The translations under genes and the position numbers were made by a program. From contig NZ_JACESB010000001.1 in assembly GCF_013912005.1 (NCBI RefSeq), positions 62,001-126,000 of the forward strand: DNA of 64,000 bases. The letters run 5' to 3'. The number at the start of each line of letters is the position of its first letter. Position 1 is the first letter of the stretch. This DNA comes from Brevundimonas sp. GTDB taxonomy: Bacteria; Pseudomonadota; Alphaproteobacteria; Caulobacterales; Caulobacteraceae. Positions 49,615 to 54,136 of the stretch are shown here, one piece after another. The notes beneath the pieces are model-generated. The model was not told the origin of the DNA. It did not search any database and worked only from the letters and a program-made list of their open reading frames with translations.

Positions 49615-50508
49615 TCAGTTGCCGCTGGCCATGACCAGGTTGCGCACCCGCGGCGGCGTTGGCGGCGCGGGCGGGGCCGGGGGCGCGATGCGCACGCCGC
49701 GGCAGGCGCGCGCGGTCAGGCCGCCCGGCAGGCGCGTCCCGGCGTCGCCGCAGGCGCGGCCCACCTGTTCCTGCGTCAGGCCGCGGGCGCCCGACAGGTC
49801 GGCGCCGCGCAGGTCAGCGCGGTTCAGCTCCGCCTCACGGAAGTCGGCTCCTGAAAACCGGCCGCCAGTCAGCCGCGCGCCGTTCAGCTCGGCGCCGCGG
49901 AACGAGGCGTTGCGGAAGTCGCCGTTCGACAGGTTCGACATGCTGATTTCGGCCGCAGAGAAGTCGGCGCCCCGGGCGTCGGCATTGGCCAGGGTGGTCG
50001 CATTCATCTCGGCGCCGGAGAGCCGCGCGTCCGCGAGCACCGCGCCGTTCAGGTTGGCGCCGTTCAGCTCGGCGCCGGTCAGGTTGGCCCGTTCGAAGCG
50101 GACGCGGACCAGGGTGGCGCCCGTGGCCATCACCCCGCTGAGATCGGCGCGGGCGAAGGTGGCCCCGGTGAAGTTGGCGCCCATCATGTCGGCGCCGATC
50201 AGCTCCGCCCGGGTGAAGTCGCTGCCGGAGAAGTTCGAGCCGATCATCTCCGCGCCGCGCAGGTTGGCGCCGACCAGGGTCGCATTGGTGAACATGGCGC
50301 CGGTGAAGGCGGCCCCGGAGAGATCGCGGCCCGACAGCTCGCAGCGGTTGCAGGAGCCGCCCAGCGAGACCATGCGCGCCACGTCCCGGTCCTGGAACGA
50401 GTACTGCAGCTGGATCTCGGCCGTCGCCGGCGCGGCCGCCGCAAGGGCGCCGAGGGCGGCCCCGGCGGCGAGGAGGCGGCGGACAGGGAGTTGGGCGAAC
50501 TGGGTCAC
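49615..50508 (-). CDS. Secreted pentapeptide-repeat protein 1
   Basis: A 297-residue protein with a Sec signal peptide (LLAAGAALGALAAAAPATA, cut near residue 30). About 38 pentapeptide repeats of A(D/N)L/F type follow (residues 57-248), preceded by GGSCNRCELSGRDLSG. After the repeats comes RGLTQEQVGRACGDAGTRLPGGL and a final Cys, then a Pro-rich end. The repeats should form a right-handed quadrilateral beta-helix in the periplasm or outside. The function is unknown. The C-terminal module is shared with the next gene. Confidence 0.87.
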   Translation of the reverse strand: MTQFAQLPVRRLLAAGAALGALAAAAPATAEIQLQYSFQDRDVARMVSLGGSCNRCELSGRDLSGAAFTGAMFTNATLVGANLRGAEMIGSNFSGSDFTRAELIGADMMGANFTGATFARADLSGVMATGATLVRVRFERANLTGAELNGANLNGAVLADARLSGAEMNATTLANADARGADFSAAEISMSNLSNGDFRNASFRGAELNGARLTGGRFSGADFREAELNRADLRGADLSGARGLTQEQVGRACGDAGTRLPGGLTARACRGVRIAPPAPPAPPTPPRVRNLVMASGN

Positions 50509-50571: not shown

Positions 50572-51057
50572 TCAGCAGCGCGGAATCGACAGGCCGGGCG
50601 GCAGGCGGGTGGCCTCGTCGCCGCAGGCCTGGTTGAGCCGCGCCTGCGTCAGCCCGGTCGTGCGCTCCAGCGAGGCGCCGGCGAAATTCGTCCCCGAGAG
50701 GTTCGCGCCGCGGAAGTTCGATCCGTCGAGATAGGCGCCGACGAAGCTGGCGTTTGTCAGGTCGGCCCCGGCGAAGCTGGAGCCGGAGAAGACGCCGCCG
50801 TAGGCTTCCACGTCCCGCAGGTCGGCGCCGTCGAAGCGGGTGCGGTTCATCACGACCAGGCTGAGGTCGGCCTGCCGCAGGCGCGACCGCGACAGGTTGA
50901 GACCGCGCGCCTGCAGCCCGGACAGCTCCGCCTGGAACAGGTTGCAGCCGCTGCAGCTGGCGCCGCCCCGCACCCGCGCGATCTGGCCGGCGTTCTGGGC
51001 GTAGGCGGGGGGCGCGGCCGCGAGAAGGACGGCGGCGAGGACGATCGGCAGGCGCAT
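50572..51057 (-). CDS. Secreted pentapeptide-repeat protein 2
   Basis: A 161-residue shorter paralogue of the neighbouring protein. The start at ATG 51057 gives a clean signal peptide (MRLPIVLAAVLLAAAPPAYA). The N-terminal cap GGASCSGCNLFQAELSG matches the other protein's GGSCNRCELSGRDLSG. The repeat region has about 17 pentapeptides (residues 38-125), and the end TGLTQARLNQACGDEATRLPPGL plus terminal Cys again matches. Two conserved Cys pairs suggest disulfide caps at both ends. Function unknown. Confidence 0.85.
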   Translation of the reverse strand: MRLPIVLAAVLLAAAPPAYAQNAGQIARVRGGASCSGCNLFQAELSGLQARGLNLSRSRLRQADLSLVVMNRTRFDGADLRDVEAYGGVFSGSSFAGADLTNASFVGAYLDGSNFRGANLSGTNFAGASLERTTGLTQARLNQACGDEATRLPPGLSIPRC

Positions 51058-51113
51058 GGCGGGCTCCGGGTCTGAAGGACCAGTCGCGGGCAGGGTGGCG
51101 CCGATTCGTTGAC

Positions 51114-53537
51114 TTAACCCTGCATCGAAGGCGCCGCGCCGCAGGTCTCGCAGATCCAGCCGCCGCCCTGGGGCTTCAGGGCCATGTCGCCGCACTCCGG
51201 ACAGGCGTGGGCGATGGGCGGGGCGGCCGCGTTCGCCGACGCGTCGCGCCTGCGCCCGAACGGCACGACGACGAGGTTGTCGGGCGTCGCGCCGCGGGCG
51301 AACCCGCGGGAGATCAGCCGCGCGGCGGGGACGGTCGTCGCTTCGTCCTCGCCGCCGCCGCCTCCGCCGCCCAGACCGTCGCCCGCTCCCGGGTCGGCGT
51401 TGGCGAGCTCCTGCCGACCGAGATAGGACACCCCCAGTTCGCGGAAGATGTAGTCGAGGATCGAGGTCGCCGACTTGATCGAGTCGTTGCCCGTGACCTT
51501 TCCGGCGGGCTCGAAGCGCGTGAACACGAAGGCGTCGACGAATTCCTCGAGCGGCACGCCGTACTGCAGCCCGATCGAGATCGAGATGGCGAAGTTGTTC
51601 ATCAGCGAGCGGAAGGCCGCGCCTTCCTTGTGCATGTCGATGAAGATCTCGCCGAGCTCGCCGTCCTCGTACTCGCCGGTGTGGATGTAGACCTTGTGGC
51701 CGCCCACGGCCGCCTTCTGGATGTAGCCCTTGCGGCGGTCCGGCAGCTTGCGGCGGGTGCGGTCGCGCTCCACGACCTTCTCGACCACGCGCTCTACCGT
51801 CCGCGCTTCCGGCTCCCGCGCCCGCTCGGGCGCCGACGGAGGGGCGTCGGGCAGGTCGAACAGGGGCCCCGGCGGCGGCGCGGCGCGGGCGAGGCGCACC
51901 GCCCGGGCGCCCTCGCGGGCCGCGTCGGCCAGCGCCCTGACCCCCGAGGCCTCGCCGGCGTCCCACGGCAGGGGCCGCGCCAGAATGTCGGGCGCCGCGC
52001 TGAACGGCTCGCAGGCGCGGCGGACGCCCGCCTCGAAGGCCGCCGGATCGGCGAGCGCCGGCGCGAGCGCGGGCGGCGCGTCCGGCCAGTCCGCGAGGTC
52101 GGCGCGACCGAGGGCCCAGGCCGCGGCGGCGGCCGTCTCCGCCGGGTCGAAGCCGAGATGGGCCAGCGCCGGCTCCCCGGCGGGCAGCTCGAGGCCGAGC
52201 ACGTCGCGGACGAAGCCCTCGTCGAGAACCGCCGGATGAAAGGCGTCCTCGAGCCGTTCGACGACGGCCAGCGCCCGCTCGACCGCCTCCAGCTCGACGT
52301 CGGTGAAGCCGCGCGCCCGCAGCCGGGCGTGATCGAGACCCGGCGCTCCCGCAAGGGTGCGGCGGCCGAACAAGCGGCGCTCGGCGGACTCCACGTCTCC
52401 GCCGCAGGCGGTCAGGGCCGCGGCGATCGAGGGCCGGAGCCGGCGGGCGATCTCGCCGTCGCCGGTCTGGAACGCCTCGACCGCGGCGAGCGGACCGAGG
52501 GCGAGGCGGAGGGCGGCCTCCGGGTCGTCGACGAACAGGCTCAGTCGCGCCCCGGCCGCCCCGGCCGCCTGCCGGACCTGGCCGGCCAGCGTCCGGGCGT
52601 CCGCCTCCACGTCCGTCGGCGCGGCCGCGAGCAGGTGGTCGGCCAGCCCGCCCAAACCCAGCGACCATGCCGCGCCGTCCCGGCCGAGGACCCGCGCCCA
52701 GAGCGAGACCTGGCTGGCGAGCGCCGCGTCGAATCCGGGGTCGGCGAGGTCGCGCAGGCGCGGCAGCGAAAGCAGCATGGCCTCGCCGGCGCTGCGGTCG
52801 GCCAGCGCCTCCGCCGTCTCCGGCTCGAAGACCACGACCACGTCCCCGTCGAGGCCGGCGCGCGCGGCCAGGCCGGCCTCCGGCGCGCCGGAGGCGACGA
52901 GCTCCCGGTCGGCGACGATGACCAGCGGCGGCAGGGGCGCAGGCTCGGGGAGGTCGACGGCGGTCTCGCCGCCGCGGGCGGCGCGGAGGATGTCCGCATC
53001 CGGCGCCCCGGCGGCCCGGGCGGCCCGCGCGGCGCGGGCGAGGGCGGGGTTCCGGGCCGGGTCGGCGCAGTCTGCCGCGGGGCCCTCGCACCGGCGCACC
53101 GCCTCGGCCACGTCGGCGAGCGCCGCGGCCGCGGCCCCGGTCGCGGGCCCCGCCAGCCGGCGGGCCCGGCGCCGGGCGACCTCCTGGGCCAGCCAGCGAG
53201 GGGCCGCGGGGTCATCCAGCGGCGGCGCCTCGGCCCCGGCGGTCTGCGGCGGCCGGGCCGGGCTGGCGACGCCGAGCAGCAGCGCGGCCGTCGCCTCGGC
53301 GGCGTCGACGCCGGTCAGGCCCCGGCGCCGGCTCCAGGCGGCGCAGGCGGCCGCCAGCGGATCGGGCCCGGCGACGCCGAGGCCCTCGTCCGCGGCCCAG
53401 TCGAGCCAGGCGTCGATCTGGGCGTCGGTCCAGTGCGCGGGCGCCGCGACCTCGATCAGCGCCGGACCGCGCTCGACCGTGCGCGGCGGGCGGGGGGTGC
53501 GGTCGAGCAGGGGAGCGAGGCGGAAGGTCGGGCGCAT
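51114..53537 (-). CDS. Class II ribonucleotide reductase (NrdJ)-like protein, apparently catalytically decayed
   Basis: An 807-residue protein. Residues about 595-712 ([58 protein letters not shown]) match the C-terminal TSCPD-type domain of alphaproteobacterial NrdJ almost unchanged. A zinc ribbon follows (Cys779, 782, 796, 799). Residues 390-570 ([43 protein letters not shown]) look like the distal NrdJ barrel region with the key segments eroded. The redox tail TSGCS is missing and residues 1-390 are very Ala-rich with no recognisable active-site loops. No reductase activity is expected. Confidence 0.75.
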
Positions 53538-53743
53538 GACGCGGTCTCGATGCGGCGGCTGACGCAGGCTAGCGCGCGCCGCGCGGCCGGGGCAATAAAT
53601 CTGGGCCGCCGGAAGCGTCTTACCCCCAAGATGTTGAGGGCGCGGCGGCCGGAGCGCCGCTGGACGCGGACGCCGCAGGTTTCTATGATCGTCGCCCTGT
53701 CGCCGGGGTGTCCGGCCGACCCGAATCGAGTGGATTTCCCGAC

Positions 53744-54136
53744 GTGCTAGGCAAGATCTTCGGCTGGTGGGACGGCGCGACCATCGGCACCCTGTTCACC
53801 ATCGCCAAGCGCGGCCAGCTGGTCGGGACCGACGACTTCGGCAACCGCTATTACCTGTCCCGCGACAACACCAGCTACGACGGCCGCCGCCGGCGCTGGG
53901 TGGTCTACAACGGCTACGCCGACGGCTCGAAGGTGCCGCCGGAGTGGCACGGCTGGCTGCACTACACGATCGACGAGCCGCCGACGGAGCAGCCGCTGCC
54001 GCGCAAGGCGTGGGAGACGGACTACCTGCCGAACCTGACCGGCACCCCGATGGCCTGGCGGCCCAAGGGCTCGCTGGCGGCCGAGGGCGTGCGCCCCGCC
54101 GCGACCGGCGACTACGAGGCCTGGAAGCCCGAATGA
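53744..54136 (+). CDS. NADH:ubiquinone oxidoreductase accessory subunit NDUFA12
   Basis: A homologue of the mitochondrial complex I subunit NDUFA12 (B17.2), found in alphaproteobacteria. From GTG 53744 it has 130 residues starting [17 protein letters not shown]; a further GTG at 53708 would add 12 residues. Family motifs are [32 protein letters not shown] and [20 protein letters not shown]. Its stop overlaps the DUF2155 start by 4 bases. The exact start is not settled because neither site has a good ribosome site. Confidence 0.93.

Follow-up and report, generated by a model that had tools for sequence, protein, structure and literature searches.

The window, meaning the whole 64-kb stretch of Brevundimonas DNA analysed here, carries on its minus strand a gene that begins with ATG at 53537 and runs for 807 codons down to 51114 without internal stops. 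The intact 807-residue frame of the original prediction (51114-53537) is thus confirmed, on the minus strand. The plus strand of this stretch also reads open, and so do further overlapping frames, the DNA being G+C-rich. Because many overlapping frames are open in DNA of this kind, an open frame alone is no proof of a gene; its orthologues are, and matches to the window protein were found in 139 of the 149 genomes searched in its family (its own included). The gene, its parts and its neighbours are listed below.

51114..53537, minus strand: NrdJ orthologue of 807 residues, almost certainly dead catalytically (open reading frame, profiles, alignment)
51879..53231, minus strand: degenerate remnant of the NrdJ catalytic region, residues 103-553 (profile match, alignment)
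51402..51749, minus strand: TSCPD domain, residues 597-712, nearly unchanged (Pfam match, alignment)
51138..51203, minus strand: four-cysteine ribbon, residues 779-800, proposed zinc ligands, with the two redox cysteines of NrdJ absent (alignment; cysteine roles from the accessible part of PMC5704485)
53592..53639, minus strand: pair of NrdR-like boxes before the start codon, spaced 32 bp (consensus scan, shuffles)
53708..54136, plus strand: NDUFA12 gene, divergent, found at both truncated and full-length nrdJ loci
50572..51075, minus strand: pentapeptide-repeat gene directly downstream, start codon approximate (locus comparison)
49615..50508, minus strand: second pentapeptide-repeat gene (locus comparison)

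The NCBIfam model NF005736, which describes the alphaproteobacterial B12-dependent ribonucleotide reductase (RNR) NrdJ, matches the window protein in three stretches with 316 bits, against a cut-off of 1737 bits. In a comparison of a profile of residues 1-592 (18 Caulobacteraceae rows) with 42 full-length NrdJ sequences, residues 103-553 proved colinear with NrdJ 320-956 (Prob 99.95, E 1e-38). The scattered NrdJ-like anchors noticed in the original prediction are therefore real homology, and residues 103-553 are homologous to the catalytic region, the relation of residues 1-590 to the barrel being judged from profiles only. A profile of 30 truncated forms compared with solved structures matched NrdJ 7b9p over profile positions 105-590 (6.8e-68), and the Maricaulis form aligns with nearly the entire NrdJ in profile comparison. 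The Pfam barrel model still recognises the remnant above its cut-off in 14 of 30 family genomes, the matches falling within model positions 230-460 and not in the first part.

The locus points the same way. Upstream in the window stands a divergent NDUFA12 gene, and one is found in this orientation, though not at a fixed distance, upstream of 25 of 29 truncated forms and 21 of 47 full-length nrdJ genes. Profile homology together with this synteny argues that the window gene is nrdJ itself, changed in place, and on this evidence it is an in-place orthologue of the alphaproteobacterial class II reductase NrdJ. Colinear homology, shared locus and tree (see below) agree on descent from NrdJ. With the NF005736 proteins it shares the locus near NDUFA12, the colinear homology, the TSCPD domain and four zinc cysteines, but it lacks the finger loop and the redox cysteines, and some stretches of its catalytic region are missing or unrecognisable. 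A paralogue of nrdJ was considered and rejected, as the gene holds the ancestral nrdJ place.

Among 80 named loci, 47 encode an NPCSE finger loop, 29 are truncated and without it (the 5′ end being incomplete in L043, L050 and L092 and the 3′ end in L054) and four (L069, L087, L102 and L111) are partial, with a full-length-type tail and a cut or broken frame that places them in neither class. Genes of full-length type in broken frames occur at L150 (two frames) and L069, from G206 and a Robiginitomaculum MAG, and represent either assembly error or fresh loss.

We aligned 72 rows: 25 full-length NrdJ and 47 truncated forms, of which two (L051 and L147) are identical and six (L130, L133, L136, L149, L152 and L153) have an incomplete 5′ end. 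The finger-loop motif NxCxE and both active-site cysteines are present in 25 of 25 full-length proteins. NxCxE is found in none of the 47 truncated rows; the column of the first active-site redox cysteine is unfilled and the second position is never cysteine, so that each of the five aligned positions (both cysteines and the finger N, C and E) scores 0/47. Phosphate-loop threonines survive in one and four of the 47. Nucleotide sensing, a job suggested in the original prediction, would have to do without the finger loop and, in nearly all rows, without these threonines. In the row of the window protein the finger loop is missing, and NrdJ 201-300 (the site of the first redox cysteine) and 651-700 are unfilled. 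Two cysteines of the window protein, C150 and C157, which may bind metal, are invariant in 22 Caulobacteraceae rows and match a cysteine-rich stretch of full-length NrdJ (P0002 residues 150-160).

The C-terminal part is preserved selectively. The TSCPD model PF12637 matches residues 610-701 (E 4.8e-10, 40.1 bits versus a gathering cut-off of 22.8), bearing out the nearly unchanged NrdJ TSCPD-type domain that had been predicted. All six ribbon cysteines are present in the 25 full-length proteins; the truncated forms keep C1, C2, C4 and C5, the proposed zinc ligands, in 47 of 47 rows and the redox cysteines C3 and C6 in none. In the window protein the retained four are C779, C782, C796 and C799, and a search for the TTGCS tail found none, consistent with the predicted four-cysteine ribbon at 779-799 and missing redox tail. 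For Stackebrandtia NrdJ, the accessible part of PMC5704485 proposes that the homologous C933 and C945 form the redox pair and that C920, C923, C936 and C939 bind zinc; measured zinc content backs three of the four zinc positions. The exact loss of the redox cysteines with exact retention of the zinc ligands supports the roles proposed there. With NxCxE, the active-site cysteine pair and the C-terminal cysteine pair all lacking, the window protein is, to judge from its residues, almost certainly dead as an RNR.

The two parts of the protein are under different constraint. Mean pairwise identity before the TSCPD domain is 61% among the 12 full-length rows of the order versus 26% among the 47 truncated rows, and within TSCPD it is 76% versus 77%. 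NrdJ 201-300 is 68-79% identical among full-length proteins of the order and is filled in just 3-10% of truncated rows; NrdJ 1051-1100, within TSCPD, reaches 90% in truncated versus 91% in full-length proteins. By these identities constraint is turned over: the catalytic part has drifted, and TSCPD is under as much constraint as in the working reductase. The dN/dS ratios of the three closest Caulobacteraceae pairs are 0.105-0.203 before TSCPD and 0.005-0.051 within it; only these pairs were used, since ratios of distant rows (up to about 1 before TSCPD) are not dependable, the simple dS estimate reaching a plateau in these G+C-rich genes. As dN/dS is low before TSCPD too, the dead part is not free of selection either. 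Loss of catalytic residues, mostly intact orthologues and low dN/dS in both parts of the closest pairs together bear out the predicted pseudo-enzyme derived from a class II RNR and kept by selection, and the TSCPD identities fit the suggestion that the C-terminal part was kept for another job. A fresh pseudogene was rejected: the frame is unbroken and the gene is no recent disrupted copy, having orthologues across several families. One in-frame stop each occurs in the truncated copies G222:C1:31218-32714 (order) and G133:C133:6453-7907 (family), possibly marking beginning loss or a sequencing error.

Across 120 genomes of the order, classed by best match (full-length at least 1622 bits, truncated 190-410, neither below 130), 83 have the truncated form only, 28 full-length NrdJ only and nine neither; among the matches listed, none has both. 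Five full-length NrdJ of the order also fall under the NF005736 cut-off. A profile search found no full-length NrdJ in the window's own genome, which encodes NrdA and NrdB on contig C9 and NrdR on C1. The suggestion that the protein binds true NrdJ accordingly fails here, as it does in the 83 truncated-form genomes by the listed matches. A class I NrdB match is present in 119 of the 120 genomes and strong in all 83 with the truncated form; G243, which has none, and G156, which has only a weak one, both encode full-length NrdJ. In these genomes, then, the truncated form never occurs where it would be needed as a reductase. Six of the nine genomes with neither form belong to one genus of family f4 (G163, G167, G171, G226, G234 and G242), the others being G002, G049 and G066; these genomes would be useful for co-loss analysis of a TSCPD partner. 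An additional reductase of about 570-850 residues, apparently accessory, occurs in some relatives (G024, G037, G083, G002 and others; L201-L206) and was not seen in the window genome.

In a tree on residues 386-756, from which L150 was left out, the 47 truncated rows form one clade (100/100) beside Parvularculaceae NrdJ, with one change; a tree on the TSCPD domain, which is too short, does not recover the Caulobacterales truncated forms as one clade. In the rpoB tree, which bears on whether Maricaulis-type and Robiginitomaculum-type genomes (family f4) are sisters, the deep forks are weak. The gene tree suggests one origin in Caulobacterales, and two losses are possible.

The same decay recurs elsewhere in the class. 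TSCPD was matched in 152 of 240 genomes of the class and such a match was lacking in 88; the matches listed are mostly frames of about 1200-1300 residues. Other class-level matches lie in short frames, apparently at contig edges (G341, G415, G441, G461, G468 and a second G459 copy), or are weak and unlisted (G268, G269, G306 and G342); the exceptions read in detail are the five described next. Outside Caulobacterales, four more families have a dead or absent barrel with TSCPD kept, and in two of them it is a free protein of about 275 residues. The G251 protein (278 residues) consists of TSCPD and a four-cysteine ribbon; those of G448 and G340 (274 and 272 residues) have TSCPD without a ribbon; that of G459 (912 residues) is dead, without a finger loop and with a four-cysteine ribbon; and in G400 an ORF of 565 residues carries a diverged TSCPD but lacks the ribbon. 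NDUFA12 is a neighbour in G251, G448, G340 and G400; none was found in the G459 stretch. NrdA and NrdB are present in G251, G448, G340 and G459.

In the TSCPD tree, which does not contain G400, G448 and G340 group with Pelagibacteraceae (99/87) and G459 with Thalassospira (95/82); G251 sits on a long branch among Rhodospirillales, a placement with weak support. These four rows need three label changes on well-supported branches; full-length versus dead requires five changes in all, three of them on well-supported branches. The tree thus points to at least three losses of the reductase, and probably five.

Upstream of the gene, the box core CAACATCTTGGGG (53624-53636) is the sole match of its pattern in the 64-kb window. 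It recurs upstream of 10 of 25 truncated loci versus 0.07 expected, for a pattern chosen after seeing these stretches, and the strict core is absent upstream of all eight Maricaulis/Hyphomonas-type loci. Scans used what we take to be the NrdR box consensus. Upstream of nrdA in the family, NrdR-like tandem boxes stand 31 bp apart, with no more than 1 in 100 shuffles as good in 14 of 21 loci (of which L212 and L214 look alike); upstream of the nrdA of the window's own genome, 0 of 200 shuffles were as good. At a spacing of 32, a box pair was found in 14 of 17 Caulobacteraceae truncated loci with at most 2 in 100 shuffles as good (window, 2 in 100), where 32 is the best of 24 spacings tried on these same, related loci and shuffles keep single-base content only. 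The other three loci (L046, L047 and L054) have a pair at spacing 31 (at most 3 of 200), a spacing at which the window shows no pair (120 of 200 shuffles as good). In a single-box scan at p ≤0.05, 3 of 26 truncated loci scored versus 20 of 43 full-length nrdJ loci. Co-regulation with RNR genes in Caulobacteraceae is likely on this evidence.

Our preferred reading, which we regard as reasonably probable, is that of a dead RNR retained because its TSCPD domain has a function that needs no catalysis; that TSCPD functions independently of class II catalysis is itself very probable. DNA precursors could be supplied by class I NrdAB, which the genome encodes. TSCPD would be an autonomous binding or oligomerisation module acting on a partner found in cells with or without NrdJ, and the independence of that partner from NrdJ would explain why the domain was kept when the enzyme was lost. 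The NrdJ barrel cannot be this partner, as it is gone in G448, G340 and G251. The dead catalytic part would serve as a scaffold at most and the zinc ribbon as a structural accessory, and the ribbon would not be required, since the G448 and G340 proteins lack it. Because the NrdR-like tandem boxes resemble those on nrdA, and because of the gene's descent, our best guess is a job in supplying dNTPs or in DNA replication, the protein most likely partnering or regulating the machinery involved. A tie to dNTP supply is tentative, at slightly under an even chance, and was rated lower still before the box test at spacing 32. Counting against the preferred reading is the dispensability of TSCPD, no such match having turned up in 9 of 120 genomes of the order and 88 of 240 of the class.

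Known systems offer partial parallels. An IscU-like domain is predicted between the barrel and the zinc finger of class II RNRs, with no role reported for it in the accessible part of PMC9669993, where most such domains have no cysteines at the ligand positions. From its position between barrel and zinc finger, TSCPD is probably this domain; the difference is that in the window form it survives without a working barrel. TSCPD contains no cysteine in 71 of 72 rows, which makes an IscU-type Fe-S scaffold with cysteine ligands unlikely. A search of solved structures with TSCPD returned just 1whz, at the domain start (residues 601-620) and at chance level (E 0.41).

The alternative that survives best, although unlikely, is a binding module outside dNTP metabolism, acting on nucleic acid or the ribosome, or in envelope or zinc stress through its pentapeptide-repeat neighbour. 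The window protein contains a basic, nearly invariant stretch in the alignment, which would suit such a role, and by a regular-expression count at loci with enough downstream DNA, a pentapeptide-like gene follows 26 of 28 truncated loci. In C. crescentus, moreover, YjbI/PerA is CCNA_01968 (accessible part of PMC12864828), two locus numbers from the annotated NrdJ, CCNA_01966. However, the pentapeptide link also holds at four full-length Caulobacterales nrdJ loci (of the remaining 37 full-length loci, just 2 showed it), the NrdR-like boxes speak for a role in dNTP supply, and the 1whz match offers no more than chance similarity.

A slowly decaying, functionless relic whose C-terminal part merely lags behind is highly improbable. 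Its appeal lies in the part before TSCPD, which varies strongly in length and sequence among truncated forms, and in the nine order genomes with neither form. Yet identity within TSCPD is on a par with that in full-length NrdJ, the closest pairs have low dN/dS on either side of the domain boundary, just one of the listed family matches (G133) has an in-frame stop, and the gene is kept across several families of the order and further families outside it.

We consider equally improbable an accessory subunit of the NrdJb kind that would hand electrons to a second reductase in the cell, for instance class I NrdA. In the split Pseudomonas enzyme, NrdJb performs thiol-disulfide exchange for NrdJa, according to the accessible part of PMC4520616. 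By contrast, the window form has neither redox cysteines nor an NrdJ partner in its own genome, and both absences speak against an NrdJb-type reductant subunit. Loss of the redox pair, with both C-terminal cysteines missing in 47 of 47 truncated rows, makes electron transfer unlikely in general, and the G448 and G340 proteins have no ribbon at all.

Almost no credence can be given to an active reductase of unusual type whose catalytic residues have moved elsewhere. In its favour are an intact frame and clear homology to the catalytic region; against it, NxCxE is found in 0 of 47 truncated rows (six with an incomplete 5′ end), the five aligned active-site positions are lost throughout the 47, and the cells have NrdB and, where looked for, NrdA.

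What goes beyond the original prediction is the loss of only the redox cysteines from the ribbon, the ancestral nrdJ place, the recurrent decay and the NrdR-like boxes. A broader view, on which we are evenly divided, is that TSCPD is in effect an independent protein carried by class II RNR, the reductase having been discarded or inactivated at least three and probably five times in Alphaproteobacteria, with a conserved function in DNA-precursor or replication biology. We found no description of a dead nrdJ with a kept TSCPD in open PubMed Central papers.

The C. crescentus gene CCNA_01966 is most likely an orthologue of the window gene. Its distance of two locus numbers from CCNA_01968 fits the window order of dead nrdJ followed by pentapeptide genes, and a C. 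vibrioides control genome has TSCPD and no NF005736 match over the cut-off, a result that is support and not proof because the five full-length NrdJ of the order noted above are also under that cut-off. In the accessible text of PMC5869019, CCNA_01966 is named a B12-dependent reductase; that of PMC6538847 lists it as NrdJ under nucleotide reduction and counts dNTP production among the uses of B12 in C. crescentus. Any use of CCNA_01966 as evidence for B12-dependent dNTP synthesis in Caulobacter, as in PMC6538847, would need correction. B12 surveys that count annotated NrdJ may be affected as well; the accessible part of PMC10378866 reports annotated NrdJ copies in 10 isolates out of a set of 12 that includes one Brevundimonas. 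The truncated forms provide natural separation-of-function cases, in genera with good genetics, for an RNR domain to which the accessible part of PMC9669993 assigns no role.
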